A DNA stretch of 64,000 bases. Origin: Anaeromicrobium sp. (GTDB taxonomy: Bacteria; Bacillota; Clostridia; Peptostreptococcales; Thermotaleaceae). Position 1 is the first letter of the stretch; each line of letters opens with the position of its first letter. The stretch is from the NCBI RefSeq assembly GCF_025210435.1, contig NZ_JAOART010000045.1, positions 37,870 through 101,869 of the forward strand. Direction: 5' to 3'. Below, piece after piece: positions 4,557-55,460 of the stretch. The position numbers were made by a program, and so were the translations under genes. A model generated the notes under the pieces. It saw nothing but the letters and a program-made list of their open reading frames with translations. It was not told where the DNA came from and searched no databases.

Positions 4557-4645
4557 TATAGATTTATGAACCTAAATCTTTATTTATGCTGTAACTTTCC
4601 TGAAATAGGCTCATATAAAGCTGGTTTATGAATGGGAAATCTATA
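4557..4645 (-). repeat. Internal-deletion derivative of the 239-bp repeat (copy A')
   Basis: An 89-bp stretch beginning TATAGATTT and ending GAAATCTATA. Its outer parts match the two ends of the 239-bp family (the GCTGTAACTT side and the CCTGAAATAGGC side), but the whole middle is missing. Its right end overlaps the left end of full copy A by the four bases TATA at 4642-4645, so the two are directly joined. Confidence 0.75.
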
Positions 4646-4880
4646 GATTTCGTAACACTAAGCTTTCTCTATACAGTAACTTGCCTATAAGGAAAAATAT
4701 ATTGAAAATCTTTGGAACCCTGAAACGTCACAACATCCTATGCTCCTTGAACATGACACATGAACCTATCTACGAAGATTCTCACTTTCGCTTGTGACAA
4801 GGACTTGGGTAGAAAAGATTTTCAATATATTTTCCTGAAATAGGCCCACATAAAGCAAGTTTATACACCAGAAATCTATA
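4642..4880 (-). repeat. 239-bp dispersed inverted-repeat element, copy A
   Basis: A full-length member with TATAGATTTC at the left end and GAAATCTATA at the right. Relative to copies B, C and E it is inverted. Two long complementary arms around the AATATATTGAAAATC sequence flank a core of about 100 bp that is nearly identical to copy B (CCCAAGTCCTTGTCACAAGC is shared). It lies directly downstream of the DUF624 gene, at the end of the glycan locus, where no ordinary terminator is seen. Confidence 0.9.
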
Positions 4881-4908
4881 TATCTCATGTATGATGTGTA
4901 CAATTGCC

Positions 4909-5502
4909 TTATACATATTTATCTAAAATTCTATTTACAAGTTTCAAACTAACGGTACCATAAATTCCCATCATGAATAAACCACAGGGTGGAAAAAGAA
5001 CCACCATATAAATGATTCCTAAAAAAGTAATTGTACATAATATGGTTGTAGGAAAGTGTCTTATGGATAAAAAATAAGCTGTTTTAAAATACCTCAAGAT
5101 ATCCATCTCAAATCTGGTCATTAAAATAAATATATATAATGAAATCCATAACACCTGAAGATAAATAGCAAGAGAAATGATCTTGTTAATTTCTATTTCT
5201 AAAAAGATTAGATTTGTATTCATCCAGATAGCTGATAATATTAATCCAAATATTAAGAAGGCTTCAATAACTATACTTTGTTTTAGACTTTCTTTAAATG
5301 TCTTTATAAAGATTTTTATATACTCATGGCTTTCTTCATGGTCTATTCTTTTTAAAACCGTATAAACTGCAACACTAGCTGAACCTATTGTAATAATTGG
5401 TAGGCTCAATATAAGCCAAATCAGGTTGATTACAAACATATCTACAATCTTTTTCGAAATTTTTCCTAAGAATCCATTTTGCTTATATATGTCAATCATC
5501 AT
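4909..5502 (-). CDS. DUF624 (YesL-like) membrane protein
   Basis: 197 residues with four to five hydrophobic segments: about 22-45, 73-95, 105-128 and 150-182. The pattern and the N-terminal GKISKKIVDMFVINLIWLIL match the YesL/DUF624 family, whose biochemical role is unknown. Two ATG codons are adjacent; the second (5499) is slightly better spaced from the GAGGTG site. It is the last gene of a run transcribed with the GH127 gene (9-bp gap), two permeases and a sugar-binding lipoprotein. Family members sit in carbohydrate ABC operons in many Firmicutes, so a role in uptake of plant glycans is inferred from context only. Confidence 0.85.
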   Translation of the reverse strand: MMIDIYKQNGFLGKISKKIVDMFVINLIWLILSLPIITIGSASVAVYTVLKRIDHEESHEYIKIFIKTFKESLKQSIVIEAFLIFGLILSAIWMNTNLIFLEIEINKIISLAIYLQVLWISLYIFILMTRFEMDILRYFKTAYFLSIRHFPTTILCTITFLGIIYMVVLFPPCGLFMMGIYGTVSLKLVNRILDKYV

Positions 5503-5511
5503 ACCACCTCT

Positions 5512-7314: not shown

Positions 7315-7329
7315 ATCTATTTCACCTCA

Positions 7330-8166: not shown

Positions 8167-9122
8167 TTACTTGTCTCCCCCTCATAATAAACATATCTTC
8201 TAGAAATTTTAAATAATATGAATGTTATTCCTAAAATTACAATAAATAGAAGTACAGCTTGAGCACTAGCATTACCAAAATTAGAAAACCTAAAAGCTTC
8301 TCTATAAAGATTTAAAACGTATAATAAACTGGCATTGTTGGGGGCTCCCATATTGATGCTTTGCCCCCCACTAGTCATTATATATGGCTGTACAAAGGTC
8401 TGAAATGCATTAATAAATGCCATTACTGTATTAAAAAAAATAATGGGAGAGGTCATTGGAATCGTTATATGAATCAGCTTATGCCAAGCATTTCCTCCAT
8501 CTACTTCAACTGCCTCATATAGCTGAGTTGGTACCTCTTGAAGTCCTGCAAGGAAAATAACAATTGTATTTCCTGATAGCCACAAACTAAATAAAACAAG
8601 AGTTGGAATTACAGTCTGTTCAGATGCTAGCCAGGGTGAAGGTGGTAAATGTAGAGTCTTTAAGAAATAATTAACTATCCCAAAATCTGGCTGCAATATC
8701 CATAACCAAACCATTGATGAAGCCGCCAGTGGAATAACTACGGGCAAATAGAAAACCCCTCTAAAAAAGCTTCTTCCCTTTATCTTTTGATTTAGTAATA
8801 ATGCTACAGCATAAGAAAATATAATTCCCAGTGGGACACTTAAAAATACATAATAAAAGGTCGCTTTTATTGATGGATAAAAAAATGGATCTTTCCCAGA
8901 TAACAAATATTCATAGTTCTTAAATCCAATAAATTCTGGTTTGCTTCCAATAACATATTTACTCATACTCAATAGGACTGTAACTAGAATTGGCCCTAAA
9001 ACAAAGACTAAAAACCCTAATATTACTGGCATAGCAAAAAACCACCCTGCAAATTCTTGATTTGACGATATTTCACTTAATCTTTTCCTGATTTTTTTTA
9101 TATTATCAAATATTCTATTCAT
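8163..9122 (-). CDS. Carbohydrate ABC transporter permease (MalF/UgpA type)
   Basis: 319 residues from the ATG at 9122, which has a GGGG tract nine bases upstream. A TTG five codons earlier is open but lacks a ribosome site. Six membrane segments are visible, with the EAA loop EAVEVDGGNAWHKLIHITIPMTSP near residue 210. The first partner of the two-permease CUT1 importer, it is coupled by a 4-bp overlap to the MalG-type gene. A strong stem-loop at 9149-9191 separates it from the binding-protein gene. Confidence 0.95.
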   Translation of the reverse strand: MNRIFDNIKKIRKRLSEISSNQEFAGWFFAMPVILGFLVFVLGPILVTVLLSMSKYVIGSKPEFIGFKNYEYLLSGKDPFFYPSIKATFYYVFLSVPLGIIFSYAVALLLNQKIKGRSFFRGVFYLPVVIPLAASSMVWLWILQPDFGIVNYFLKTLHLPPSPWLASEQTVIPTLVLFSLWLSGNTIVIFLAGLQEVPTQLYEAVEVDGGNAWHKLIHITIPMTSPIIFFNTVMAFINAFQTFVQPYIMTSGGQSINMGAPNNASLLYVLNLYREAFRFSNFGNASAQAVLLFIVILGITFILFKISRRYVYYEGETSK

Positions 9123-9148
9123 ACTTATTAGCCCCAATCTATTTTTTT

Positions 9149-9191: not shown

Positions 9192-9208
9192 ATTGATTAT
9201 ATTAACTT

Positions 9209-10600: not shown

Positions 10601-10705
10601 TGAAATTCCTCCTCACCATTATCTATTTATTTTATTTCTTACTTACACTTTAATTTTATAATTTAGTGAATCATTTTAAAATTCCATTCTTTTTAGATTA
10701 GTGGA

Positions 10706-19520: not shown

Positions 19521-20438
19521 TTACTCTATTTCACCAATGATTTTCACTTCTGGATTTAAGCATACTCCAAATTTATCTTTTACAGTTTTTTGAACTAATC
19601 TTATTAAGTCTAATACATCCTTAGCAGTGGCATTATCCACATTAACAATAAACCCACTATGCAATTCTGACACTTGGGCTCCCCCTACTTTTACACCTTT
19701 TAATCCTGCGTCTTGGATTAGCTTACCAGCAAAATGATCAGGTGGTCTTTTAAAAGTACTTCCTGCACTAGGTAGACTTAAGGGTTGCTTTGTAGTTCTT
19801 TTTTTAGTCAATTCTTTTATTATATTTTTTATTTCTTCATAATTACCCTTTTCTAACTTTATATCCACCTCTAAGACTATATAACCTTCCCTTTGTACAT
19901 TACTGTTTCTATATTCAAATCCTAGTTCCTCATTATTTAAATAAACCACATTGCCAAACTTATCTATAACAGAAGCCCCTGTTACCACGTCCTTCATTTC
20001 ACCACCATAGGCCCCTGCATTCATAGTAACTGCACCACCTAATGTTCCTGGTATGCCGCTGGCAAATTCAAAGGTTTTAAGGGAATTTTTAAGGGCCAAA
20101 TTGGCAAGGTTAGATAAAAGTACTCCCGCCTGGGCAGTTATCTTTTCATCTTCCACATCTACCTTATTAAAATTACCTCCAATTTTTATGATAGCACCTC
20201 TTATGCCCTTATCTGCTACTAATAAATTACTACCATTTCCTATAATATAGTATTTCACTTCCTCTTCATTAAAAACTTTTAGAGCATGTTTTACTTCTCC
20301 TACAGATTTGGGTAAAATCATAAGATCTACAGGCCCACCTATTTTAAATGAAGTATGTTTTGACATAATTTCATTTTCTCTTATATTGTCCTTATCTATT
20401 CCTTCTATTAATCTATCATATATTCCTTTTATATGCAC
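19521..20438 (-). CDS. murB: UDP-N-acetylenolpyruvoylglucosamine reductase (MurB)
   Basis: 305 residues from a GTG start at 20438, preceded by AGGAG. This FAD enzyme makes UDP-MurNAc in peptidoglycan synthesis. The FAD domain carries KHTSFKIGGPVD, YIIGNGSNLLVAD and GIPGTLGGAVTMNAGAYGGEM. The catalytic serine is in LPSAGSTFKRP, and NPEVKIIGE ends the protein with the conserved glutamate. It is the most upstream gene of the murB to HPr block; a 214-bp gap separates it from the PHP gene, so it may not share one transcript with it. Confidence 0.96.
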   Translation of the reverse strand: MHIKGIYDRLIEGIDKDNIRENEIMSKHTSFKIGGPVDLMILPKSVGEVKHALKVFNEEEVKYYIIGNGSNLLVADKGIRGAIIKIGGNFNKVDVEDEKITAQAGVLLSNLANLALKNSLKTFEFASGIPGTLGGAVTMNAGAYGGEMKDVVTGASVIDKFGNVVYLNNEELGFEYRNSNVQREGYIVLEVDIKLEKGNYEEIKNIIKELTKKRTTKQPLSLPSAGSTFKRPPDHFAGKLIQDAGLKGVKVGGAQVSELHSGFIVNVDNATAKDVLDLIRLVQKTVKDKFGVCLNPEVKIIGEIE

Positions 20439-20505
20439 TAAATCTCAACTCCTAAACCTTCACTATTCTAAATAAAGTATAACATTAAAAGGTATTAAAT
20501 GAAAA

Positions 20506-21855
20506 TCATTCTTTCTTAATGGTTTTATAAGTATTTATTTTATTTTTAGCATGATCTAATCCTTTTTTTATGTTCTTATTCTTAATAAGCATCTGCCTTA
20601 ATTGACTATAAAAATACTCTTGAGTCATATTCCAATTTGGATTAGATATATTTTTAGTATATTTCAAATTTTTTTCTACAAAATCCATTTTATCATTTCC
20701 CATATATATTTCCTCTATATTTTTCTTCACTGGAAATACTCCCACTTCATTTAAGGCCCTTTGGTATTCATCCCTAGATAAAAATTTTAAAAATTTCACA
20801 CACATCTTCAATTTTTCCTCATCCTCTTGCTTAAAAATCCCATAGGCTGAAGTTACCTTAGCTGCTGATATGGGATTTTGCCTCTTACCTATAGGATAAT
20901 TTCCAACTTGAAATTCAAATCCTTCTCCCGATTCATAGGCTTTATTTAAAGTATTTATGGCCCAGGTTCCAGCAGGATATACTCCAATTTTTTTGTCCTT
21001 ATAAAAACTTTTCCAAGCTTGTATTTCTGAACTTTCCCCAAAATCACCTGGTACTACCTTGTGTTTATTTTTTAGATCTACTATTTTTTTTACCCCACTT
21101 ATGGCTTTACTATCATTAAATACATATTCTCCCTTACTATTAAAAACTTCTCCTCCATCTGATAAAAGTATTCCCCAAAGACTATAATCATTTACACCCA
21201 TATAAGCATTAAACCCATAATAATCCATTTTCCCATCACCATCTTCATCCACTGTGAGTTTTTTAAGAGTTTCTATAAATTCATCATAGGTCCAATTTCC
21301 TTCCTTAGGAATTTCAATTCCCCGTTCATTAAACATTTCCACATTCAACAAAAGATTATAAGTACTCATAGTATAAGGAAATCCCCAAATTTTCCCCTTA
21401 TATTTTACTGCCCTTAGGGCATCTGTTTTATACATTCCGATCTCATCTTTGGTCATAAATTCATCTATATTTTGGAGTAACCCCTTAGATATGATTCTCA
21501 CATCTGTAGCCACAGGCCCTATATCTGGATAAGTTTTCGTATCAACAGCCGTATCTAACAACATATGGCCCGTCTTTCTTGATAAGGGTTTAAATTCTAT
21601 ATATACGCCAGGATTTTCTTTCTCAAATCTCTTTATCTTATTCAATATCCAACCATAGTTACTTCCCGTTTGAATATTAGTTTTAGGATAATCCCAAAAG
21701 CTTATTACTCCTTTAAATAAATACTCTTCCTTCTTTATAGTATTATTTTTTATTTCTTCTTTCACATATATAAAATAAAAGGGGCCAATTATTATGAATA
21801 ATATAAGTATGAAAATTAAAAGGGATACAAAATTGCTCCTACCTTTACTACTCAC
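20506..21855 (-). CDS. Orphan membrane-anchored solute-binding protein (family 1 type)
   Basis: 449 residues from a GTG at 21855, eight bases after AGGAGG; another GTG three codons upstream overlaps that site. A single hydrophobic stretch at about 11-32 has no lipobox cysteine or obvious signal-peptidase site, so it is probably an uncleaved anchor. The rest follows the solute-binding family 1 plan (KRFEKENPGVYIEFKPLS, DIGPVATD, NWTYDEFIETLKKLTVDEDGDGKMDYYGF). No permease or ATPase is adjacent. It might supply a transporter encoded elsewhere, or act in a spore-related role near spoIIR; neither can be shown here. Confidence 0.8.
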   Translation of the reverse strand: MSSKGRSNFVSLLIFILILFIIIGPFYFIYVKEEIKNNTIKKEEYLFKGVISFWDYPKTNIQTGSNYGWILNKIKRFEKENPGVYIEFKPLSRKTGHMLLDTAVDTKTYPDIGPVATDVRIISKGLLQNIDEFMTKDEIGMYKTDALRAVKYKGKIWGFPYTMSTYNLLLNVEMFNERGIEIPKEGNWTYDEFIETLKKLTVDEDGDGKMDYYGFNAYMGVNDYSLWGILLSDGGEVFNSKGEYVFNDSKAISGVKKIVDLKNKHKVVPGDFGESSEIQAWKSFYKDKKIGVYPAGTWAINTLNKAYESGEGFEFQVGNYPIGKRQNPISAAKVTSAYGIFKQEDEEKLKMCVKFLKFLSRDEYQRALNEVGVFPVKKNIEEIYMGNDKMDFVEKNLKYTKNISNPNWNMTQEYFYSQLRQMLIKNKNIKKGLDHAKNKINTYKTIKKE

Positions 21856-21957
21856 GCCTACCACCTCCTACTTATATCTATTAAAAAGTTCTTATGCATA
21901 TTCTCTTAATTTCTAAGTTAGTATATTTATAAAAAAACTATTGCAAACATATGCCTG

Positions 21958-22196
21958 TATAGATTTCTGGTGTATAAACTTGCTTTATGCGGGCCTATTT
22001 CAGGAAAATATATTGAAAATCTTTTCCACCCAAGTCCTTGTCACAAGCGAAAGTTTGAATCTTCGTATATAGGTTCATGTGTCATGTTGGAGTAGCATAG
22101 GATGTTGTGACGTTCCAGGGTTCCAAAGATTTTCAATATATTTTCCCTTATAGGCAAGTTATTGTATAGAGAAAGCTTAGTGTTACGAAATCTATA
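21958..22196 (+). repeat. 239-bp dispersed inverted-repeat element, copy B
   Basis: Ends are TATAGATTTC and GAAATCTATA. Two perfect 22-nt complementary arms lie at 22003-22024 and 22125-22146 and flank a 100-nt core that includes TTGTCACAAGCG and TTGTGACGTTCC, which can also pair. Sequence is very close to copies A and E. It fills most of the gap between the orphan binding protein and spoIIR. Confidence 0.92.
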
Positions 22197-22285
22197 GAGA
22201 TAGGTCTGAGTTGAGGAAGCTATATACCTGGGAATTGAGAATGGACAAAAATAACAAGGAAAAAAATATATAATATAGTTTAAAA

Positions 22286-22337
22286 ATCCCCCAACTTGCT
22301 AATACTGAAAATAAGAAAAAATATTAGTAATGGGGGA
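22286..22337 (+). promoter_or_regulatory. Hairpin that would cover the spoIIR ribosome site
   Basis: TCCCCCA (22287-22293) and CTAATA (22299-22304) are complementary to TATTAG (22322-22327) and TGGGGGA (22331-22337). The last of these is the GGGGGA ribosome site nine bases before the spoIIR ATG. An RNA starting upstream of 22286 would therefore fold with the ribosome site paired. Confidence 0.6.
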
Positions 22338-22346
22338 ATTATTATT

Positions 22347-23003
22347 ATGAATAAAAAATTTATGGGTATCATTTTATTTTGTGGAATAATATTATTTACT
22401 ACGTTCATGTCTCTAGGTAAAGTTTACGAAAATCAAAGGGCTTATAAAAATGAATTAATAAGATTTCATGTTATAGCCAATAGTGATTCACCAAAGGATC
22501 AAGCTTTAAAATTAAAAGTAAGGGATGAAGTTATAAAAAAATTAAATCCTAAATTTGAAAAATCAAAGAGTCTAGATGAAAGCAGAGATATAATAAAGAA
22601 AAATATAGATATTATAGAAGAAGTAGCAGGAGAGGTAATCGCATCAAATGGATATAATTATGAGGTTAAGGCTAGTTTAGGAGAAGTTAATTTTCCAACT
22701 AAAAACTATGGAAGCATTACCCTACCAGCTGGAGAGTATGAAGCCCTAAGAGTAGTTATAGGAGATGGAGATGGGGCCAATTGGTGGTGTGTATTGTTCC
22801 CGCCCCTATGTTTCATAGATATGGAAAATGGACTTACAGATGAAAGAACTAAAGAAGAAATGAAAAGTGTTTTAACTAAGGAAGAGTTTAATATGATATA
22901 CACTAAGAAAAATCAGGAACTTCCCCTTAAATTAAAATTTAAGATAGTGGAAGTAATAGAGAGTGCTAAGGAAAAAATAAATAATAAATTAGTAATGAAG
23001 TAA
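22347..23003 (+). CDS. spoIIR: Stage II sporulation protein R
   Basis: 218 residues from the ATG at 22347. Family role: made in the forespore and exported, it triggers SpoIIGA to cleave pro-sigma-E in the mother cell. An N-terminal signal or anchor (FMGIILFCGIILFTTFMSLG) is followed by the conserved IRFHVIANSDSPKDQALKLKVRDEV and the C-terminal ANWWCVLFPPLCFID. Forespore expression by sigma-F is expected, but I could not assign a convincing sigma-F promoter in the 150 bp before it. It is flanked on both sides by 239-bp repeats and followed by its own terminator. Confidence 0.95.
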   Translation: MNKKFMGIILFCGIILFTTFMSLGKVYENQRAYKNELIRFHVIANSDSPKDQALKLKVRDEVIKKLNPKFEKSKSLDESRDIIKKNIDIIEEVAGEVIASNGYNYEVKASLGEVNFPTKNYGSITLPAGEYEALRVVIGDGDGANWWCVLFPPLCFIDMENGLTDERTKEEMKSVLTKEEFNMIYTKKNQELPLKLKFKIVEVIESAKEKINNKLVMK

Positions 23004-23029
23004 AGTCAATCATATGGATTGGCTTTTTT
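23003..23029 (+). terminator. Intrinsic terminator after spoIIR
   Basis: AAGTCAATC pairs with GATTGGCTT (one G-U) over a short ATATG loop, followed by TTTTTT. It overlaps the stop codon region. Confidence 0.8.
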
Positions 23030-23049
23030 CTTTTAATAAAAAAATCATA

Positions 23050-23288
23050 TATAGATTTCTTGATTTTAAACTTGCTTTATGTGGGCCTATTTCAGAAAAA
23101 TATATTGAAAATTTTTTCCACCCAAGTTCTTGTCACAAGCGAAAGTATGAATCTTCGTAGATAGGTTCACGTCTCATGTTGGAGCAGCATAGGATGCTGT
23201 GACGTTCCTCAATTCCAAAAATTTTCAATATATTTTCCTTTATAGGCAAGTTACTATATAAAGAAATTTTAGTGTTACGAAATCTATA
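23050..23288 (+). repeat. 239-bp dispersed inverted-repeat element, copy C
   Basis: Same ends and length as copies A and B. In both internal arms the base after GAAAAT is changed from C to T relative to copy B, so the stem still pairs. It lies between the spoIIR terminator and the sleB promoter region. Confidence 0.92.
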
Positions 23289-23290
23289 GT

Positions 23291-23320
23291 GAATAATTAA
23301 ATACAACCTGTTTAAAACTA
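23291..23320 (+). promoter_or_regulatory. Possible sigma-G promoter of sleB-ypeB
   Basis: GAATA fits the -35 pattern GHATR; 18 bases later AAAACTA matches five of seven positions of CATNMTA. SleB and YpeB are made in the forespore under sigma-G in Bacillus. It begins three bases after the end of repeat copy C. Tentative. Confidence 0.4.
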
Positions 23321-23353
23321 ATAATGTGAATATGTAGAAAGGGAGAGTTTTGT

Positions 23354-25452: not shown

Positions 25453-25690
25453 TATAGATTTATCAACACTAAGCTTTATTTATACAGTAACTTGCCTACG
25501 AAGGTAAATATATTTGAATTTTTAGGAATCCGGAGCGTCACTATATCTTAAGCATAGTAAACATGATACGTGAACCTAGTTTTAAAATTTACATTTTAGC
25601 ATGTGACAGGCGACTTGGATGGATAAAAATTCAAATATATTTTCCTGAAGTAGGCTCATATAAAGCAAGTTTATAAATAAGAAATCTATA
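25453..25690 (-). repeat. 238-bp dispersed inverted-repeat element, copy D (divergent)
   Basis: Inverted relative to B. Ends are TATAGATTTATC and GAAATCTATA. It is the most diverged copy, yet both internal arms carry the same changed sequence AAATATATTTGAATTTTTA, so they stay complementary. Core words TGTCACA, AGGTTCACGT and GTGACGCTCC are kept. Confidence 0.85.
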
Positions 25691-39557: not shown

Positions 39558-42494
39558 ATGAATAAAAAAATAATGAGTATGGTCTTGAGTATGGTGATTT
39601 TATTTTCTATTCCAATTTACTCATACGGAGAAACAATAGACCCTAACAATATAGTATTAAGCACAAGCCCACAAAATAGTGAGATTAATGTAAGTTTAGA
39701 TCCATTATTAAAAGTAGCATTTACCCATAAAATAGAATTTTTAGATAGTGATAAAATTGATTATATAAAATTAGAATCCAATGAAGGGGTCTATGTACTA
39801 GATAATAGTGGTATACAAATAGGTGGAAATGGAAATAAGGAACTACTTATAGACATAATGGATGAAAGGGATAATGCATATGCTCTTAAGAAAGATACTC
39901 AATATACATTAACTATTAGTCCTAATCTAGTTAAATTAGTGGGAGTAACGGATTCTCATGGACAGGAGGTTAAGAATAAGGAAATAAAATTAACCTTCGC
40001 AACTACGGGAGAGGGAAGTATTCCTAATGTTGTAAAACATTCATCTAATGAAAGTTTTACAGATAATATAATAAATGTGAATGAAACGGGTCTTGTGAAG
40101 GATGGATATATATATATTAAATTCGATAGGAATATAAACAAAGATATGGATGTTTTAGGAACCCCATTAAATAATATGGTAAAAATGAATAAAAAATTAA
40201 AGTCTTTCAATGAAAGTAATGTTACAAAGGGTGCTTCAAATACTGACTTTAATTTTATAAATAGTAATGATAACTATGGATACACAAGTAAAGTTGAGTA
40301 TTTGAATATTGAAAGTATGGAATCTATAAATAATTATTTAAAAATAAAACCAAAAGAAGTATTAAAAGAAAATAGTGCCTATAGGCTTTTCATAGATAAG
40401 AAATACATAGAAGATACTCATGGAATAAACATAAGTAATCATATAGATTCAGTTTTTTATGTAAAGGCATCTAGTGATAATTCTAGTATTAAGTATTCGT
40501 TAAGTAATGGAGAGACAAACTTTGACAAAATATATTATACACAACCTATTTACAAGGCTACAAAGCCTATAGAAATATGCTTAGATAGGGAAGTGGTACC
40601 CCTTTTATCCAGTGAAAGATACAATACGGTAACTGATTCCGTTTATGAAGATAGCTTAAAAAATATAAGCATATTTGAAAATTACAATAAAGATATTAAA
40701 ATACCCATAAAGGAAATAAAGTTAGACTATTATTTAGATGGTTCAAATAGAAAGAGTAAATTATACATATACCCAAATGAAACTTTAAAAAGTGGAGCTC
40801 ACTATAAACTTTCCATACCAGAGGGAACTTTTGAAACAATAGGAGCCATTAAAAGTAATAATTTAATATATTCCTTCGTTACTGCATCTAGTGAAAGTAA
40901 TAAGAAGGGCATATACCAGTTAGAGGATAAGGAAATAAAAGTTACTGATCTTAAAAATGGTGAAAAGACCTTTAGTATAATAGGATATAACTTTAATGAA
41001 AAAATCAGTAAAGTGGTGCTAAATCCATTTAGTGGAAATGCTCCTACTTCTATAGATATAGATAGTTCTTATGTGGAATTTTATAATAGTAATAAATTAA
41101 AAGTACACATAAAAGATTCCATTAGGGATCAATTATCAAAGGATACGAGTACGGGTAAGTATAGGGTGAAGATAGTATTTCAAAATGGACATGAAATAAG
41201 TTCTACTGATAATGAATTACTATATATTGTTCCTAAGGATAAACCCACAGTAACAAAAGTATATCCTACTAAGGAGGGAATATACGATGAAAATCAATTG
41301 AAACACGATATAATAGATGACATTACGAGGGATAAATTCTTTGTTAAAGTTACCTTTAATGATGTGGATAATACCTTGAAATTAAATAAGGATAATTTGA
41401 ATGGAATAAATGTACATTCCTTAAATGGTTCAGAGAATTTACTAGATAAAGTTTTAATGAACTCTATAATATCAGATAAAGAAAAAACTAATAAATATAT
41501 ATATGTGAAAAATCAATCTAATAAGGAAGTGACCATATACATACCTATTTTAAAACTTAATTCAAATAATAGTTATGTGTTAGATATACCATCTAATCTA
41601 GTGTACTATGGTGCAGCAGATAATATTATAGGAAATGAAGCCGTATCCTTTAACTTTAAAACAAAGGACATTCCTAACGTAGATAAAATATCTATAGGAA
41701 GTATACCAGAAGATTATGATGATTATGATATATATATTTATGGGAAATATTTTAGTAGTGATGTGGAAGTTTATTTTAATGAAGAAGAGGCTAAAGATGT
41801 AAATAGAGTAGACGATAAGACCTTGAGGGTAGAGCTTCCCTCTAATTTAGATGTGGGCACATATGATGTGATTATAAAAAATGGAGAAAATCACAAGGCA
41901 ACCATGTATGGATCCATATCCATAATACAAGAAGGGGATTATGTTCCAAACGAAAAATATAAGATAAAAGATAAAACTTCCTATGGAGATATTAAAAGTG
42001 ATATAAGGATAAATAAGGATACCCTAGAAGTGATAGGAACCTATGATGAGTTAGAGATAAATTTAGACAAACTAATGGGTTATAATACTTATTTAAAGGA
42101 AATTGAGTATTATGGAGACTATTTAGGTCTATTAGAAACCCATTCAATTAGTGGAGATATAAATATATTTAATCTAAGAAGAATAAATGCAGACAAAAGG
42201 ATAAGTTTATATGTGGGTAAAGTAAATCCTCATAAGCTTACTAATATTAAAAGGAAATTAAGAGGAAAAACTATTTTATCAGACTTTATGGGGGTTTATG
42301 GAGAAAACTTTAATCTAGGTAGTGTTGTAGTTAAGATGCCATATAAGAAGTGTGATCTGAAGAAAGTGAAAGTCCTAAGATATGATGAAGACCTTAGAAA
42401 TTTTTATGAAGAAAAGTTTAGTATAAATTTAATAGATAAAAGGATAGAGATAATAGGTAAGGACAAAGGTATATTTGTAATAGTTAATAAATAG
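39558..42494 (+). CDS. Large secreted surface protein with Ig-like domains
   Basis: 978 residues. A signal peptide (about 1-25, ending YGE) is followed by a SbsA/Big_5-type Ig-like domain (LSTSPQNSEINVSLDPLLKVAFTHKI and TYTLTISPNLVKLVG). Two further regions of the same plan follow, with AYRLFIDKKYIED and HYKLSIPEGTFET. An IPT/TIG-like unit lies at about 715-800 (YDIYIYGKYFSSDVEVYFNEEEA). No LPXTG or SLH anchor is present. First of four genes on the same strand with gaps of 2-18 bp: an operon whose last product carries SLH domains. Function unrecognised beyond surface assembly. Confidence 0.8.
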   Translation: MNKKIMSMVLSMVILFSIPIYSYGETIDPNNIVLSTSPQNSEINVSLDPLLKVAFTHKIEFLDSDKIDYIKLESNEGVYVLDNSGIQIGGNGNKELLIDIMDERDNAYALKKDTQYTLTISPNLVKLVGVTDSHGQEVKNKEIKLTFATTGEGSIPNVVKHSSNESFTDNIINVNETGLVKDGYIYIKFDRNINKDMDVLGTPLNNMVKMNKKLKSFNESNVTKGASNTDFNFINSNDNYGYTSKVEYLNIESMESINNYLKIKPKEVLKENSAYRLFIDKKYIEDTHGINISNHIDSVFYVKASSDNSSIKYSLSNGETNFDKIYYTQPIYKATKPIEICLDREVVPLLSSERYNTVTDSVYEDSLKNISIFENYNKDIKIPIKEIKLDYYLDGSNRKSKLYIYPNETLKSGAHYKLSIPEGTFETIGAIKSNNLIYSFVTASSESNKKGIYQLEDKEIKVTDLKNGEKTFSIIGYNFNEKISKVVLNPFSGNAPTSIDIDSSYVEFYNSNKLKVHIKDSIRDQLSKDTSTGKYRVKIVFQNGHEISSTDNELLYIVPKDKPTVTKVYPTKEGIYDENQLKHDIIDDITRDKFFVKVTFNDVDNTLKLNKDNLNGINVHSLNGSENLLDKVLMNSIISDKEKTNKYIYVKNQSNKEVTIYIPILKLNSNNSYVLDIPSNLVYYGAADNIIGNEAVSFNFKTKDIPNVDKISIGSIPEDYDDYDIYIYGKYFSSDVEVYFNEEEAKDVNRVDDKTLRVELPSNLDVGTYDVIIKNGENHKATMYGSISIIQEGDYVPNEKYKIKDKTSYGDIKSDIRINKDTLEVIGTYDELEINLDKLMGYNTYLKEIEYYGDYLGLLETHSISGDINIFNLRRINADKRISLYVGKVNPHKLTNIKRKLRGKTILSDFMGVYGENFNLGSVVVKMPYKKCDLKKVKVLRYDEDLRNFYEEKFSINLIDKRIEIIGKDKGIFVIVNK

Positions 42495-42509
42495 GATGGT
42501 GAATAGAAG

Positions 42510-45500
42510 GTGAATGAAATTATAAAAAGAGTTATAGGATTGAGTATGGCCCTAGTAGTATTTTGCCTAAGTGGACCCTTTAGTATCTATAAGGTATGGG
42601 CAGCAGATCCATATTTTGTAGATGAAATAACCATAAGTAAAATATATGAGGATGGATCCTACTCTGTAAGTAAAACTAAGCTTACAATCCATGGTTCTAA
42701 TTTAACGGGAATAGCTGTAGGTACTATGACATCTACTGGTTACAAGTTACTTACTAACCCTACTGTAAATGCTCCTACCGTATTAGAATTTTTAGTAGAT
42801 GGAGATAAGATAGGGTCTAGTGTAGATGTGGGAGGAACTTCTATAGAAATAGAGAAAAATGCCCTACCAACACTGCTCAGTTTAAATAAAAGAATAATAA
42901 AACTTAATAAAAATGAAGAAAAACTAATATTAAATGGTTCTAATTTAAGTAAGATAAAAGATGATCCAAACGATTCAGGTGGTGAGAGTAGTGAATATAG
43001 GGCTTACTATGAAAACACATCTGGAGCTGGTGGAGAAATAGAACTTGATGAAAATAATTTTACAAATGACTCTCAAATCCAGATACCTAATAGTGAAATT
43101 AAAGGTGTATCAGGTATGCAAGACATAATTTTTACAAAGAAAAAGACTAAGAAATTTAATTTCCCTAGTGTGGGAGATAAAAACGTGAAAATATTAATAC
43201 AAAATACCTACTTGAAACAATTTACACTAGTAGAAGAGATAAATGTGAGTAATTTAGTAATGAATCCTAATAGGGGATTGCCTGGTGATCAGATAGAGTT
43301 CATAGCCACTGATGGACTTAACAAGTATGATGTGTTTTTCCTAAAAAAACTTACGGATAAATATGAGAATAAATATAAAGGTACAGATACTAAATATTCT
43401 CCTAATATAGATGGAAGACAAGTTCTTACTACAAAGGTTCCAAAGGGTATTGAGGCAGGACAATACTATGTAATATTTACAAATCCAATACCAGATGGAA
43501 AAGATCCTGATGAATCCATAACAAAACAGTTAATAATAGGAACATCACCTAGTTATGAAAAATTCACAGTGATAGATGCCCAACAAAAAATAAGAATATT
43601 ATCCGTAAACCCTAATAAGGGAGCTGATATAGGTGCTGAAACGGAAATATCGGGAATCTATTTTGGTTCGTTAAATATTCCTAGTTTAAATTTAGATGAT
43701 GACATGATTACAGTTACAGGGGATATATATGGGACTAATAGTAATATAACTATAGAATATGGAGATAAGAATAAGGACATAAAAGGAAATTACGAAGGTA
43801 CTCCTGTGGAAAAGGTCACAAGAACAGTTGAAGTAATAATAGGATCTGTGGCCAAATTCCCAAAAAAATCCAGTGGTGATTATGAATATTCTTTTTCTAA
43901 AGCCTTGGATAAAATAAAGGTTAATACTCAACCTATTACGGATGCAGACTCAGACCCTATAAAGGATGTGGTGGTAGAAACGGAAACCATAATTAAGCTA
44001 AAAGGATATCCTAATAATATTGTTTTAAAGGACAAGGCCATAATGGAAAATGGTTTCACATTCATTCCTAGTAAGATTGAGCCAGATATTCAACAGGTGG
44101 TTCCACAAAAAATACAAGTGGTAAAGGATGGAGATAAGTATAAAATTTCTAATGATGAGGATAGATTTATAGCCATATACGGGAAAAACTTTTTTATACA
44201 TAGGTATACGAAAGACAGTAAAGAAAAGATTAGATATCCTATTATAGAATTGGGAAATTCCATAAGATTGGATAAGAATACTCACCCTAATATTGATATT
44301 AAAATTTTTGATAAGCAGGGAAATGAGCTAGATGGAAGTGAAGGAAATGAATTAGGAAGTAAAATATTAATAAAAGTACCTAAGGATTCTACTATTACTA
44401 ATATTGGAAAAACCTGGACCAAAATTATAAATCCTGTAAGAAATTCTGACGAAGAAGGCTTATATGAGCAGGAAGTTGATAGTATAGAATTTGTTCTAGT
44501 GTCAGATAATGATACCCCCATAATAGAAGAAGTAAATCCTAATATAGTGTCCATAGAAGGTGGAATGGACATAGAAGTTATAGGTAATCAATTTAAGGAT
44601 GGTGCTAAAGTAATAATCGGTGGAAATGTGGTTGAGAGCATAAAAGTTCAAGGTGATGGAAAGAAAATAACATTTAAAGCCCCAAAGGGTGAATTTGAAG
44701 GAGAGACTCAACTTCAAGTAGTAAACCCAAAGGGTGGAATAGATACATATCCTTTTATTTATGTTAAAACATATACGGTGCCTAAAATAACAGATTTTTC
44801 TCCTAAGATGGGGAGTTCTAAGACCTTAGTAGTTTTAAATGGAGAAAACCTATTAAAGCCAGATCCAACAGGGTCTGCAGACAATATGTATAAGTTTATA
44901 GGAACTAGAGTTTTACTAGAGGGAGTAGATATTAATGAATATAATATGGACTCTAGTAACAATAGGGTACAACTTGAACCTTACAAGGCGAAAAATGGAA
45001 ATAAACTATTAGACACAAAGGACCAAAATTTGATAAAAGAGTACTACAACAGTGTTATATTAAAAAATAATAATACTAACAAATATTATGTTATAGATCA
45101 AACGGAAGATAAAAAGATAATTTTATCTAATGGTAGTAATGAAAAATATGAAATTAAAAGAAATGGAAATAATATAGAGGCCCATAGTAGAGATGGGCAT
45201 GTTTTTCAAGTTACAATGGAAGAAGAAGGAAACCAGGATGTAATAAAGTTAAAAGATTCTTCAAATACAATAAAACTATATATGTATACACCATATAAAG
45301 TAATAGATCAGGTCATAGTAGGAAATAGGGTTAAAGTTTTATCCATAGGGAAATTATATTTTACAATTCCTACTAATTTAACTAGGCCAGGATATTATGA
45401 TGTTACTATTAAAAATCCAGATACGAAGACAGATAGTAAAATAAATGAACAAGGATTTAATTATTATCCTCAACCTTATAATAATCCCAATATATCATCT

Positions 45501-48500
45501 ATAGAACCAAATGAAGGTTCCGTTGACGGAGGATACTATATAACTATTAATGGTAGTTCAAATTCAGATGGAAAGAAGTGTTTTGAAGATAGTGCCATAG
45601 TAAGTATAAATGGAGTACAAGTGCCAAGAGTAGATACAATAGTATCTAGTGATAGCCTTAGTATAAGGGTTAAAGTACCCAAATTAGTACAAAGTATAGA
45701 GGGCAATAGAATAACAGTTCCTGTAGTTGTGGTAAATCCATCAGATGGGTCTAGTGCCAGTTTGGAAGATGGATTCACCTATATATTACCCTATTCTAAT
45801 CCAGTAATTAAATCCATATTTAGAGATAAGGGAAAGGCTTCAGGTGGATATTATGTGGAGATCACAGGTCAAGATTTTAGATATGAAGAACCCTATACGG
45901 ATAAGAATAAAAATGGCCATTGGGATAGTGGAGAACCATATATAGATTTAAATGGTTGGCATGTAAATACTAATAGTCCTGATGATGGAAGTAAAGGTCC
46001 TGATTCCTTTGCAGGAGATAAGGTTAATGATCTTAAAAATAAATATGGTGAAGATTATAAAAAAATTTATAAAAAAGATTATTATGATATAGTAATACCC
46101 GTATTACCTGAAATATACTTTGGAGATAAACAAGCAGAGATTACAGACTTTGAACATGGATATATTAAGGTAATGGTTCCAGAAGGTAAAGATGGCCAAG
46201 TAGACGTATATTTAGTCAATGGTGATAAGGGTACTTCTAATAAAGTAAAGTTTACTTACGAATCTTCAAACCCTACTATTACTAGCATCATACCTAATAG
46301 TGGTAATAAAAAGGGTGGAGAAAAGATTGAAATAAAAGGAACAGAACTATTTCTAAGTAAAGATAGAAATATAATGTATAAGGAAGGAAATACAATAAAA
46401 ACTAAAAAAATAAATATGTGCCTAGTTAGATTTGGAGATATGACAAATAGGAATATTTCTAAGGGAGAAGAGAACTCAGGAGCTATAGACAATGGTAAGA
46501 CAACTGTTTCATTAGATGGAAATCTCAAGGTTGATTATGATGGTGTTAAGCATAAAGTTATATTACAAATAACGTCAGGGGATAAGACCTATAAGGCAGA
46601 AGTGGATTATAATGATGAAAAAGTATTTGTTCCTATAAGTTTTCTATCACATACGGATAAAGATGGGAATGTGGAAAAGTATGCCAGTGATGATCCTAAT
46701 AGTGACAAAAGATATGATGAACTAATTTTGCTAAATGTGGAAAATAAAAGGCTTATGGTTGAAAGGGGATATTCTTCTAAATTTGAATATATAAATGATA
46801 AACAGGTGGTAGTATATACGCCATCCTATCATACGGTGGGACAAGTAAGTTTGAACTACATAAATTCAGATGGCGGAATTGCCACAGGTACATTTGACTA
46901 TAAGAACCCTACTAGTAAACCTGAAATAATAAACATAACAAAGGATGGTCAGGATCCAATAGAAAAGGTTTCTGATGGAAAACTCATAAAATTAATAAGG
47001 GTTAACTATAAGGGTGGCAATACCATATCCATAATAGGACAAGGATTTGTAGAAAATGCAACTATACAAATAGGCGATATGGCAACTATAGACTCAAAGG
47101 ATATTAAGTACCAAATACCAGATAGATTAACTTTCACCATGCCTAAAACTGATGAAAGTAATGTGGGAAAGAATTTTAGAGTGGTAATTAGTAACCCAGA
47201 TGGAGGAAATACATCATCAGATGAACTATCTCCACCTATATATATACAAATTATCAAAGGAGAAACGGCACCACAAATAGAATCTATAGATCCTAAGTTT
47301 GGACCATCAAAGGGTGGTACAGAAGTAACTATAAAGGGGAAGGATTTTAGAGATAATTTAAAAGTAATAATAGGAGAGAAGGTACTAGAAAATAAATATA
47401 TAAAATCCATATCTTCTACTAAAATAGTAATAACAATGCCACCCCATTCTCCTGGACAAGTGGATATTAAAGTTGAGAACGAAGATGGAGAATTGGCCAT
47501 ATCACCAGAAAAGTTCACTTACGTAAGTGAACCTAAGATAGCAGAGGTTACTGATCAGAAGGATAACTATATAAACAAAATATCTATTGAAGGTGGTAAT
47601 ACGATAAGAATTAAAGGAGCAGGTTTTATAGATGGTGCTAAGGTTATATTTGCTCCAGCAATAAAAGAAGCTGATAGTGAAAGTGGAGATACAATATATA
47701 TATCAGGAAAAAAATATATAGTAGAATCAGGAAATGAAACCACTAGCCAATTCGTATCAGAAAGTGAATTACTAGTTACTGTTCCTGCAGGAAAGCTAGG
47801 TGAAAAGGGAGTCATGGTTGTTAATCCTGATAAGGGTGCCACTGAAATCTATGAAAACCTAAAATATGGATTACCAGAAACACCAGCACCTACTAATGTA
47901 TGGGCTCAGCTTTACTATGATCAACATATTAAAGTTAATTGGGACAAGGTAAAGGATGCTAGCCAATACGAAATATATGTCCTAGAGGATAACAACAAGA
48001 GATATATAGGAAATACAGAATTAAATTCCTTTGTATACGATGACCTAAAGAGAAGAACTAAATACAAATTTGTAATAACTGCCCTAGGAAAGTATGGTTC
48101 ATCCATATATTCCATGGAAAGTAATGAGGTTAAAACAGGAAGTAAAGTTGGAAAAGATGAAGATGGAGAACTAGGTGAAGATACGGTTGTGGAAAAAAGT
48201 GGGCCAAATGCAACAATAACTATAGGGATAGATGATTACAATAAATATACCACATTAGATTTAACAGAAGGACAATTGGCAGGAAGTAAAAACATAACAA
48301 TAAATATACCAGCAAAGGTAATTGGAAAATTAGATGTACAAAATATGACTGTTATAGGTAATGATTATGTGGTGAAATTTAATCCAAATACTTTCTACAA
48401 CTATAAAACTAAAGATAATATGGAAAATGCAGGTGTTAAATTTAATATTACAAATAAACCTAGTGAGTATATACCTAAAAGGGGAGAAACCATAATATCA

Positions 48501-48749
48501 AATCAATTATCCTTAAGGGCCTATGATTATGTAAAAGATAATGTGGATGAATTAGACTATACAGGATCCCTCATATTTGTAAGTTTAGATTTAGATGCTC
48601 AGAAAGCTAAATTAAGAAGAATTAAAAAACTTAAATTAGTAAGACTTGATGATGAAAATGTAGTTTTAGGAAAGGGTAATAATGAAGGGTATAACATATC
48701 AGGAGTTACAGATAGGCTAGGACACTTCGTTATTCTAGGAGGTAGATAA
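42510..48749 (+). CDS. Giant secreted IPT/TIG-repeat protein with fibronectin III domain
   Basis: 2079 residues from a GTG at 42510. After a signal peptide (about 1-30) come at least nine IPT/TIG units, marked by NPN-G or P-x-G-GG-x-I-x-G-F cores near residues 366, 675, 764, 997, 1100, 1259, 1500, 1592 and 1692. A calcium-loop-like DKNKNGHWDSGEPYIDLNG lies near 1130. A fibronectin III domain spans about 1788-1876 (PAPTNVWAQLYYDQHIKVNW). The last 200 residues are not recognised. No wall anchor is seen, so it may be held by the SLH partner encoded at 50438. Adhesion or S-layer-associated scaffold is inferred. Confidence 0.82.
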   Translation: MNEIIKRVIGLSMALVVFCLSGPFSIYKVWAADPYFVDEITISKIYEDGSYSVSKTKLTIHGSNLTGIAVGTMTSTGYKLLTNPTVNAPTVLEFLVDGDKIGSSVDVGGTSIEIEKNALPTLLSLNKRIIKLNKNEEKLILNGSNLSKIKDDPNDSGGESSEYRAYYENTSGAGGEIELDENNFTNDSQIQIPNSEIKGVSGMQDIIFTKKKTKKFNFPSVGDKNVKILIQNTYLKQFTLVEEINVSNLVMNPNRGLPGDQIEFIATDGLNKYDVFFLKKLTDKYENKYKGTDTKYSPNIDGRQVLTTKVPKGIEAGQYYVIFTNPIPDGKDPDESITKQLIIGTSPSYEKFTVIDAQQKIRILSVNPNKGADIGAETEISGIYFGSLNIPSLNLDDDMITVTGDIYGTNSNITIEYGDKNKDIKGNYEGTPVEKVTRTVEVIIGSVAKFPKKSSGDYEYSFSKALDKIKVNTQPITDADSDPIKDVVVETETIIKLKGYPNNIVLKDKAIMENGFTFIPSKIEPDIQQVVPQKIQVVKDGDKYKISNDEDRFIAIYGKNFFIHRYTKDSKEKIRYPIIELGNSIRLDKNTHPNIDIKIFDKQGNELDGSEGNELGSKILIKVPKDSTITNIGKTWTKIINPVRNSDEEGLYEQEVDSIEFVLVSDNDTPIIEEVNPNIVSIEGGMDIEVIGNQFKDGAKVIIGGNVVESIKVQGDGKKITFKAPKGEFEGETQLQVVNPKGGIDTYPFIYVKTYTVPKITDFSPKMGSSKTLVVLNGENLLKPDPTGSADNMYKFIGTRVLLEGVDINEYNMDSSNNRVQLEPYKAKNGNKLLDTKDQNLIKEYYNSVILKNNNTNKYYVIDQTEDKKIILSNGSNEKYEIKRNGNNIEAHSRDGHVFQVTMEEEGNQDVIKLKDSSNTIKLYMYTPYKVIDQVIVGNRVKVLSIGKLYFTIPTNLTRPGYYDVTIKNPDTKTDSKINEQGFNYYPQPYNNPNISSIEPNEGSVDGGYYITINGSSNSDGKKCFEDSAIVSINGVQVPRVDTIVSSDSLSIRVKVPKLVQSIEGNRITVPVVVVNPSDGSSASLEDGFTYILPYSNPVIKSIFRDKGKASGGYYVEITGQDFRYEEPYTDKNKNGHWDSGEPYIDLNGWHVNTNSPDDGSKGPDSFAGDKVNDLKNKYGEDYKKIYKKDYYDIVIPVLPEIYFGDKQAEITDFEHGYIKVMVPEGKDGQVDVYLVNGDKGTSNKVKFTYESSNPTITSIIPNSGNKKGGEKIEIKGTELFLSKDRNIMYKEGNTIKTKKINMCLVRFGDMTNRNISKGEENSGAIDNGKTTVSLDGNLKVDYDGVKHKVILQITSGDKTYKAEVDYNDEKVFVPISFLSHTDKDGNVEKYASDDPNSDKRYDELILLNVENKRLMVERGYSSKFEYINDKQVVVYTPSYHTVGQVSLNYINSDGGIATGTFDYKNPTSKPEIINITKDGQDPIEKVSDGKLIKLIRVNYKGGNTISIIGQGFVENATIQIGDMATIDSKDIKYQIPDRLTFTMPKTDESNVGKNFRVVISNPDGGNTSSDELSPPIYIQIIKGETAPQIESIDPKFGPSKGGTEVTIKGKDFRDNLKVIIGEKVLENKYIKSISSTKIVITMPPHSPGQVDIKVENEDGELAISPEKFTYVSEPKIAEVTDQKDNYINKISIEGGNTIRIKGAGFIDGAKVIFAPAIKEADSESGDTIYISGKKYIVESGNETTSQFVSESELLVTVPAGKLGEKGVMVVNPDKGATEIYENLKYGLPETPAPTNVWAQLYYDQHIKVNWDKVKDASQYEIYVLEDNNKRYIGNTELNSFVYDDLKRRTKYKFVITALGKYGSSIYSMESNEVKTGSKVGKDEDGELGEDTVVEKSGPNATITIGIDDYNKYTTLDLTEGQLAGSKNITINIPAKVIGKLDVQNMTVIGNDYVVKFNPNTFYNYKTKDNMENAGVKFNITNKPSEYIPKRGETIISNQLSLRAYDYVKDNVDELDYTGSLIFVSLDLDAQKAKLRRIKKLKLVRLDDENVVLGKGNNEGYNISGVTDRLGHFVILGGR

Positions 48750-50419: not shown

Positions 50420-50437
50420 AAAAAGAGGGGGCAAACG

Positions 50438-51937: not shown

Positions 51938-51952
51938 AAAATCATAAATAAA

Positions 51953-51981
51953 TTGACTATTAATAGTTAATAATATATAAT
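51953..51981 (+). promoter_or_regulatory. pyrG: Sigma-A promoter of pyrG
   Basis: TTGACT, a 17-bp spacer and TATAAT. The start point should fall near 51987-51988, giving a leader of about 133 nt before the pyrG ATG. Confidence 0.85.
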
Positions 51982-52007
51982 AAAACAGTTATTTTAAATA
52001 CTAGCGA

Positions 52008-53719
<1,712 letters not shown>

Positions 53720-53911
53720 GGTTAAGTGTTAAGGGTTAAGAGCTATGGATTAAATTTATACTCTTAACCCTTAGTGTCCTGCATGGGGTTAGCAGTGGGC
53801 AGTTAGCAGTCAATGGAAAAAAAGTTGACAACTCATAATTAAAAGACCACAATCCTAACAGCTAACAGCTAACAGCTAACAGCTAACAGCTAACCAACAA
53901 CGAACAACGGG
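53720..53911. repeat. Heptad-repeat region 5, two hairpins
   Basis: First hairpin: GGTTAAG TGTTAAG GGTTAAG AG against CTCTTAACCCTTAGTGTCC (53720-53780). Second: GGTTAGCAGTGGGCAGTTAGCAGTC near 53787 against five exact tandem CTAACAG copies plus CTAACC at 53855-53895. ACAACGA ACAACGG follows with the same period. It lies between pyrG and the glycosyltransferase gene. Confidence 0.82.
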
Positions 53912-53919
53912 GGATAAAT

Positions 53920-55245
53920 ATGAAGAAACATATAGAAAGATTGTACTTTCTCTTTATTTTAATTATAAGTTCCATAATGAAATTTAAATACATAAATAAT
54001 ATTAAAACAAAACAACTTTATGATTTTGAAACTTATCATGAAATAGCTTCTAATATATATAACCATTTAGGACATACATTAGATGGATGGCCAATTGCCT
54101 TTCAGGGAATGGGGTATCCTACTACTTTAGGATTTGTATATAAAGTAGTTGGAAATGACAGTATGGAAGTGGCTAAAAATTTTAATGTGATATTATCCAT
54201 ATTAACTTTAATAATAATATACTTTATAACGGTTAAACTTTCAGATGATAAATTCATAATATATGGAACTTATACTATGGTGGCATTCCTGCCAAATTAT
54301 ATAGCCTATAATAATGTGGTAGGAACAGAGGTGTATTTTACCTTTTTATTTAGTCTATTAATACTTTCTTATGTATTAGAGTATAGTTTCAAATTTAAAT
54401 TAGTAATAGTTGGTTTTTTAGTAGGTATATTAACTTTAACTAAACCATTTTTCATGGTATATCCTATAGTCTTAGGTTTTATAGATTATTTAAAGGATAA
54501 GGATATGAAAAAATCAATAATATATGTAACGAGCGGATTAATTATTATGGCCATGATTGTATGTCCTTGGACCTATAGAAATTACAAAAAGTTTGGTAGA
54601 ATTATTCCCGTGTCCTACAATTCTGGATATGTAATGTATATAAATAATAATGACTATAATACTAAAGGTGCTTGGATGCCCCTACTAGATGTGCCAAATA
54701 CAAGGGAAAATAAAGAAAAGATAGAAGATATATTATCTAAGAAAAATGTAAAAATAGCACCAGAAATAGAACCTACAATTAAAAAAACTGCTAAAAATTG
54801 GATTGTAAATAACAAGATAGAGTTTTTAAAGCTAGGAACCCTAAGGTTAAACTCCATATTTTATACTGGTAGTTGGGATATAGATGCTTGGACTAAAAAT
54901 GAAGAAAAGGTTAAGGATTTTGAAGAATTCACTAAGGAAGAACAATCTTATATGATAAGAAATAATAATTTTCATAGAAGTTTTAGGGATATAATAATAT
55001 ATATTCTAAGTAGTATGGGGATAATATATGCCTTATTTTCTATAAAATTAATACTACAGGGATTAATAAATAAGAAATATAGGGTAAGTAGTATAATATT
55101 AATACCATCTTTAAATACTTTATTTTTTATGAGTGTATACTTTGTATATGAAGGACAATGTAGATATAACTTTCCTTTACTTTTTCTATTTGTAATAGGT
55201 TTTATGAATATATTAAGTAGTTTGAATATGAAGGAAGGTCTGTAG
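53920..55245 (+). CDS. Integral membrane glycosyltransferase (GT39/ArnT-like)
   Basis: 441 residues with about nine to ten hydrophobic segments. The first extracytoplasmic loop holds YDFETYHEIASNIYNHLGHTLDG, in the place where GT-C enzymes carry their catalytic acidic residues. Such enzymes move sugars from polyprenyl-phosphate donors to proteins or wall polymers outside the cell. The ATG follows GGGGGATAAAT. Single gene; its stop is followed three bases later by repeat copy E. Donor and acceptor are not known. Confidence 0.75.
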   Translation: MKKHIERLYFLFILIISSIMKFKYINNIKTKQLYDFETYHEIASNIYNHLGHTLDGWPIAFQGMGYPTTLGFVYKVVGNDSMEVAKNFNVILSILTLIIIYFITVKLSDDKFIIYGTYTMVAFLPNYIAYNNVVGTEVYFTFLFSLLILSYVLEYSFKFKLVIVGFLVGILTLTKPFFMVYPIVLGFIDYLKDKDMKKSIIYVTSGLIIMAMIVCPWTYRNYKKFGRIIPVSYNSGYVMYINNNDYNTKGAWMPLLDVPNTRENKEKIEDILSKKNVKIAPEIEPTIKKTAKNWIVNNKIEFLKLGTLRLNSIFYTGSWDIDAWTKNEEKVKDFEEFTKEEQSYMIRNNNFHRSFRDIIIYILSSMGIIYALFSIKLILQGLINKKYRVSSIILIPSLNTLFFMSVYFVYEGQCRYNFPLLFLFVIGFMNILSSLNMKEGL

Positions 55246-55248
55246 AGT

Positions 55249-55460
55249 TATAGATTTCTGGTGTATAAACTTGCTTTATGTGGGCCTATTTCAGGAAAAT
55301 ATATTGAAAATTTTTTCCACCCAAGTCCTTGTCACAAGCGAAAGTGTGAATCTTCGTATATAGGTTCATGTGTCATGTTGGAGTAGCATAGGATGTTGTG
55401 ACGTTCCAGGGCTCCAAAGATTTTCAATATATTTTCCCTTATAGGCAAGTTACTGTATAA
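55249..55460 (+). repeat. 239-bp dispersed repeat, copy E, right end missing
   Basis: Starts TATAGATTTCTGG and follows copies A and B closely up to GTTACTGTATA; the last 25 or so bases, including GAAATCTATA, are absent. The left arm has one C-to-T change that still allows G-U pairing. The remaining 140 bp up to the NRDE gene show no further feature beyond a GAAGG ribosome site. Confidence 0.88.

Follow-up and report, generated by a model that had tools for sequence, protein, structure and literature searches.

Five copies of a short intergenic repeat are present in the 64,000-nt stretch of DNA analysed here (the window), and they are members of a family that comprises hundreds of short mobile repeats in a spore-forming bacterium and has apparently been spread by an IS630-type transposase. 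The element is likely a non-autonomous miniature inverted-repeat transposable element (MITE) of the IS630 type, the fold of which is kept in spreading and the copies of which are oriented with transcription. It is unusual in a multi-helix module of about 170 nt that is kept between species, and in its orientation bias. The window is part of a genome of 3.96 Mb in 148 contigs (G000), and in the sister species G001 related elements occur, the arms of which differ in sequence but have kept their ability to pair.

Repeat family and its probable IS630 partner

Exact 10-base ends (TATAGATTTC on the left and GAAATCTATA on the right) at a total length of 215-245 bp were detected at 58 places in the genome of the window, the reversed control pattern at none. 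A 21-base word from the core, with up to two mismatches, occurred at 244 places there and at 52 in the sister species, again with no match of the control. Distinct full-length copies in the stretches of G000 examined number 122, following earlier sets of 90, 107 and 108; the 108-copy set has distinct contexts and the 122-copy set distinct inner sequences. With a length of 232-240 bp in 90 full copies, no transposase gene and terminal inverted repeats, the element has the properties of a MITE (100-400 bp).

The first-pass annotation had considered a mobile element moved by a transposase encoded elsewhere, and this is supported by the junctions, by copies positioned at the end of another copy, by one empty site in the sister species and by an IS630 element with a matching end. 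TATA was found at the left junction in 96 and at the right junction in 97 of 107 copies, and several copies sit at the TA of another copy's end, with TATA in common. The site of copy C (23050..23288, + strand) is empty in G001, reading ...TTATAGTGTGAATAATT... against ...TCATA[element]GTGAATAATT... in the window; the G001 segments matching this region are 85-92% identical. This is one site; copy B lies at a synteny break relative to G001, and the site of copy D carries another repeat there. A search within the genome using junction-spanning BLAST (107 queries, 269 matches) gave no clean empty site among the matches listed, most of which were arms belonging to other copies or the flank of the query copy itself.

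The genome also contains an IS630-family transposon, the right end of which is similar to the terminal 34 bp or so of the MITE. This right end of the insertion sequence (IS), taken from one copy on contig C42, is identical to the left MITE consensus at 27 and to the right one at 23 of 34 positions. Beyond the first 10 bases the mean identity is 13.3 of 24 positions compared with 7.7 (standard deviation (sd) 1.5) after shuffling, and 2 of 5000 shuffles were as high. Judged from the right end of the IS alone, the MITE has its ends in common with an IS630-family element of its own genome, and at two contig ends this IS end adjoins a MITE copy. The full transposon with the same ends that had been envisaged was recovered in part: its right end matches, whereas its left end and the 5' part of its gene were not found. 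Since these parts could not be compared, we infer mobilisation in trans, by which the IS630 transposase would move the MITE and duplicate the TA at its target.

The partner gene family was identified at five places in G000, all of them at contig ends, as would be expected of a multi-copy insertion sequence at which assembly breaks off, and the DDE_3 domain (PF13358) at three. The gene was assigned to the IS630 family (NCBIfam NF033545, E 5.7e-25) at 88.4 bits, which is below the cut-off of 100, from a fragment of 152 amino acids (aa). Some of the fragmentation of the assembly probably stems from these repeats, together with the IS630 partner located at contig ends. The relative G009 contains three IS630 copies of 1.27 kb, with ends reading TATAGATAAAC or nearly so, beside TA. 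In these copies (L183, L187 and L180) the transposase lies in two frames, as in programmed frameshifting, and two of them share an identical sequence of 1270 bp.

Subfamilies with TATAGATTT and TATAGATAAAC ends have a related core in common, and the alignment of the G000 copies indicates that end types have recombined among copies. Among 54 copies of G001 the commonest left end was TATAGATAAAC, in 7 of 54, according to a permissive end search in which many rows have doubtful ends. By eye, and uncounted, the outer 30 bp or so on each side look mosaic, a few left-end and right-end types occurring in many combinations, as if copies had swapped them or diverging IS ends had supplied them. Short forms of about 97-118 bp, in which the arms are fused and the core of about 100 nt is gone, were observed in G000 (L089:15185-15302, L013:2476-2572 and L023:1388-1503), and one was found in G001 (L240:973-1066).

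A DNA search of 41 genomes detected the family in G000, G001 and G015, and gave a single 41-bp match apiece for G009 and G010. The covariance-model search, which used stricter filters and scored at most 69 candidates per genome, a number reached by G000, detected it in G000, G001 and G015 only; one of its four matches in G015 is the palindrome shadow of another. G015, from another genus of the host's family (Thermotaleaceae), has three copies (L031, L035 and L037 on contigs C5, C22 and C41), all near contig ends, and one half-copy has 99% identity with copy B across 140 bp. Recent transfer or contamination is offered as a reading of these copies. The host was placed by its D-alanine ligase only, the nearest relatives of which are those of Marinisporobacter, Thermotalea, Geosporobacter and Anaerosolibacter (60-66% identity). 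Literature searches on related terms together with Clostridia or Thermotaleaceae returned nothing matching, which is weak evidence of absence given the many subscription papers outside their coverage.

Within the window all five copies were found where they had been reported, with A and D on the - strand relative to B. Copy A (4642..4880, - strand) is a full element of 239 bp, flanked by two - strand open reading frames (ORFs) and therefore sense-oriented; a 50-bp fragment of a further copy (4596..4645, - strand; model positions 1-50) adjoins it as a profile match. Copy B (21958..22196, + strand), a full element of 239 bp with its left terminal inverted repeat TATAGATTTC at 21958..21967 and its right one GAAATCTATA at 22187..22196, lies between divergent ORFs. 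The full copies C and E (55249..55487, + strand) each lie between two + strand ORFs. Copy E had been thought to lack its right end, but the profile match spans all 239 positions and the right end is mutated to AATAAAGCTATA. Copy D (25453..25690, - strand), antisense to its + strand neighbours, belongs to a divergent subfamily that also occurs in G001, two copies there being 90% and 87% identical to it. In the window A, C and E are thus sense and D is antisense, B lying between divergent genes. The 30-bp flanks of the five copies differ, which rules out one segmental duplication.

At the site of copy D, G001 lacks D and has another repeat close by. This is a different insert of about 240 bp in G001 (L230 on contig C36, approximately 8840-9083) with an inverted repeat of the TTAAGAGATTAGGGTTAAGGG type and TATAGATA-like ends; unrelated repeats therefore lie close together at this site in the two species. 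Near copy B (window 20000-24000) the GC and AT skews flip sign where the gene direction flips, and no origin or terminus gene was identified among the annotated neighbours of this change. Elsewhere in the window (39558-48749) two adjoining large proteins of 978 and 2079 aa carry choice-of-anchor Z repeat domains (NCBIfam NF058597), the match of the 978-aa protein being below the cut-off.

Covariation of the fold and the level at which it is kept

Between the MITE ends lies a module of about 170 nt formed by the helices P1 to P5. In copy B (+ strand) P1 pairs 21993..21998 with 22150..22155, P2, the 22-nt arm, 22003..22024 with 22125..22146, P3 ACCC at 22028..22031 with GGGT at 22118..22121, and P4 GTCACA at 22040..22045 with TGTGAC at 22106..22111, while the hairpin P5 occupies 22057..22076 inside the core. 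The predicted fold of copy B reaches -75.6 kcal/mol (z -6.5) on the + strand and -68.9 kcal/mol (z -7.2) on the - strand, better than all 200 dinucleotide shuffles per strand. The first description holds for the perfect arms of B, for the change made on both sides in C and for the matching arms of D. The C-to-T change occurs in both arms of C, whereas in E the left arm is changed and the right arm is not.

RNAalifold applied to 90 copies of G000 predicted 37 pairs, 11 of which have both sides changed in one or more copies. Mutual information with average-product correction was calculated for 79 variable columns, giving 2516 column pairs at least 25 apart. Its top eight pairs comprise five paired ones (42-195, 73-165, 74-164, 75-163 and 65-173) and three within helix P3, and the ninth (65-195) is unpaired. 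A two-species alignment of 42 sequences was built from 25 copies of G000, chosen for diversity from 103 trimmed copies, and from the 17 of 22 profile matches in G001 that a trimming pattern accepted, with the structure taken from one G000 copy. In this alignment 91.3% of the cells pair and 27 of 38 pairs are changed on both sides, although b-type arms of G001 are partly misaligned, which reduces the paired percentages of P2 and P3 instead of inflating them. The covariation score was 0.322 compared with 0.122 (sd 0.008) after shuffling, none of 500 shuffles being as high, and 0.060-0.072 with slid partners. The variants include GTCACA/TGTGAC, ATCACA/TGTGAT, ATCAGA/TCTGAT and ATGAC/GTCAT in P4 and ACCC/GGGT, ATTG/CAAT and AGTG/CACT in P3. 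A further alignment of 74 rows, made with the covariance model and hence biased towards the structure, has 32 of 44 pairs changed on both sides; its 6 rows that are palindrome shadows or truncated were dropped for a 68-row set.

It is highly improbable that this covariation merely reflects the common ancestry of subfamilies. Subfamilies do exist and their end types have recombined among copies; however, the top eight distant column pairs after average-product correction are paired columns or lie within one helix, and sliding the partner by one column lowers the score to 0.064-0.072 with relatedness unchanged.

The level at which pairing is kept was addressed by variant frequency in the main subfamily (95 of 108 copies, profile score above 225). 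Stem variants were paired in 9 of 32 cases when carried by one copy, in 9 of 29 when carried by 2-3 copies, in 10 of 17 when carried by 4-9 copies and in 245 of 339 when carried by at least 10, the expectation from the unpaired mutation spectrum being 0.23. Pairing is hence a property of variants common to many copies and not of single-copy mutations. In the first-pass annotation, arm changes that disrupt and preserve pairing equally often had counted as an argument against the fold; this holds for rare variants and does not for common ones. Accordingly, its claim that the fold is maintained stands with regard to pair-specific covariation within the genome and between species, whereas private stem mutations break pairs at about the neutral rate. 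On this reading the fold is preserved in spreading lineages, without clear signs of preservation at every individual site. With 32 private variants in the 76 columns of P1-P4 and 76 in the 133 unpaired columns, such variants are slightly less frequent in the helices, and single sites may therefore be under weak constraint. The fold may be needed for the spreading of the element or screened at that step, and after insertion the copies would decay nearly neutrally at their sites.

Alternatively, the arms might resemble each other through replication slippage, one arm being copied from the other (quasipalindrome correction), with no selection on pairing. In copy L082 the two arms bear a matching change not present in any of the other 94 copies of the main subfamily, which is one matching pair (two variants) among the 32 private stem variants. 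Arm copying should furthermore homogenise the loops, but the loop between P1 and P2 keeps non-pairing sides, with three opposed positions none of which is able to pair in 38 of 42 sequences, and for the loop between P2 and P3 this applies to 27 of 42, most of the others being misaligned b-type arms of G001. Slippage is therefore considered improbable; since the older shared variants had more time for arm-to-arm copying, these observations only lower its probability.

Orientation of the copies and the possible role of a transcript

The preferred reading, a fold kept in spreading lineages, is accompanied by a pronounced orientation of the copies. For these counts, ORFs rather than curated annotations served as genes. 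Flanks of 400 bp or more on either side are available for 100 copies of G000. Of these, 4 overlap ORFs of at least 100 aa, 73 lie between tandem, 14 between divergent and 6 between convergent genes, and 3 are unresolved. Of the 73 tandem copies, 65 have the same direction as their flanking genes (two-sided binomial test, 3e-12). The 59 copies of G001 behave similarly (2 overlapping an ORF, 48 tandem, 4 divergent, 1 convergent and 4 unresolved), 44 of the 48 tandem ones being sense (1.5e-9). Antisense copies may be removed because their transcript is harmful, or the polarity of insertion may be tied to transcription or replication.

Gene direction was regionally homogeneous in most contigs examined, and replication is therefore a rival cause of the bias, the genes being merely co-oriented with it. 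Compared with an expected 80% instead of 50%, 65 of 73 is modestly high (p 0.03). However, in 19 contig stretches with 37 tandem copies, 5 copies have flanking genes that oppose the regional majority, and 4 of these follow the genes and 1 the region, which is a small number. We regard replication direction as a possible but rather unlikely explanation.

As to the suggestion that the element is a structured RNA, which is possible, the sense bias favours an effect at the transcript level, and the G.U and A.C cells of the main stem do not. In P1-P4 of the main subfamily G.U occurs in 37 cells and A.C in 66. For P1-P2 the respective counts are 11 and 73 in the 68-row two-species set and 26 and 46 in subfamily 1; for P3-P4 they are 15 and 0 in the 68-row set, 11 and 20 in subfamily 1 and 14 and 12 in the 42-row set. 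P5 favours the + strand (99 and 3 in one set, 70 and 13 in the 68-row set), mainly through one nearly fixed U.G pair. The main-stem chemistry thus does not show the + strand as a single-stranded RNA, and parts of the core fit one.

A known RNA family was ruled out, as Rfam families gave no match in the window and six matches in four loci with copies (E up to 5), all below the gathering scores and none on an element. Promoter or terminator cargo was also rejected for the 1.45-kb stretch with copies B and C: 9 promoter-like sites were predicted there compared with 7.7 (sd 3.0) after shuffling, and the sole terminator-like site lies outside the elements.

The module could nevertheless act on the sense strand as a functional RNA from which the host profits at the sites of insertion, for instance through protection of the upstream transcript at its 3' end. 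The sense orientation in both species agrees with this, as does the position of the tandem copies, which are separated by a median of 42 bp from the upstream stop and of 116 bp from the following start. Furthermore, P5 keeps U.G pairs possible on the + strand only, A.C cells are absent from P3 and P4 in the 68-row set, and the core helix P4 covaries between species. On the other hand, private mutations break pairs at the neutral rate, A.C exceeds G.U in P1-P2, the P3-P4 counts differ between sets, and the Rfam searches matched none of the elements. Such a host function is consequently quite unlikely. Rather unlikely as well, though somewhat less so, is that P1-P5 represent a new structured RNA on a transposon, which would act on the sense strand, make insertions tolerable or useful behind a gene and ride on different IS630 ends. 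Given the related core of the TATAGATTT- and TATAGATAAAC-ended subfamilies, this would be a selfish RNA module that outlives exchanges of its terminal repeats.

Several observations weigh against the explanation as an IS630-type MITE with a kept fold and transcription-oriented copies. The N-terminal half of the IS630 transposase of a relative had no counterpart in the G000 assembly (best E 0.33), and PF13358 had no match in G001, the copies of which are therefore without a visible partner now. As regards the TA duplication that empty sites were expected to reveal, the site of copy C agrees with it but is the single clean one seen, and the few bases at its junction align imperfectly. Discordant copies exist, pair 65-173 being C/A in 23 of 90. 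Finally, the age trend expected from removal of antisense copies was not seen, the median profile score being 254.65 for the 8 antisense and 255.9 for the 65 sense copies.

Comparison with known repeat elements

The internal fold of a MITE is possibly a mere by-product of its origin, and here it comes with strong pair-specific covariation between species. Variant frequency separates what the spreading lineages keep from what single copies lose, and the strong orientation with transcription provides a testable link between MITE folding, transcripts and the survival of insertions. Both the multi-helix module and the orientation with transcription merit follow-up.

The ERIC/IRU repeats of enterobacteria are, like the present element, TA-flanked, intergenic and able to fold, and their orientation is reported to be crucial for the effect on mRNA stability (PMC2229807); they differ in their length of 127 bp. 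The palindromic QMITE2 of Coxiella burnetii similarly occurs in full-size and shorter versions, comparable to the three core-less forms found here, and differs in the direct repeats of 7-9 bp reported for it (PMC5896051). With Correia/NEMIS of Neisseria the element shares the character of a TA-flanked MITE with terminal inverted repeats and more than 100 copies (PMC10969869, PMC2229807). It differs from them in host and length, and no promoter excess over shuffles was found here (one stretch, copies B and C). The Correia end sequences presumably differ from those of the present element as well. The Correia-like nature proposed in the first-pass annotation thus applies in kind only, and RUP is nearer because it has a proposed IS630 partner.

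RUP of Streptococcus pneumoniae is an intergenic repeat of 107 bp with about 110 copies, a TA target and ends like those of IS630-Spn1; its mobilisation in trans has been proposed, it would be folded if transcribed, and a consensus fold with conservation-coloured pairs has been published (PMC3049150, PMC2229807). The present element is likewise short and intergenic, sits at TA, resembles an IS630-family element at its ends, has a fold and would be mobilised in trans. By this analogy it is best regarded as a RUP-like IS630 MITE, which belongs to a known kind with RUP as its nearest known relative in kind. It is not RUP itself, with 239 bp instead of 107 bp and a host from another lineage. RUP lies on the leading strand in 60.9% of cases (PMC3049150), which is a different measure from the 89-92% of the present copies that are oriented with tandem genes. 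Unlike RUP, the present element carries a multi-helix module of about 170 nt, the covarying helices of which are common to two species.

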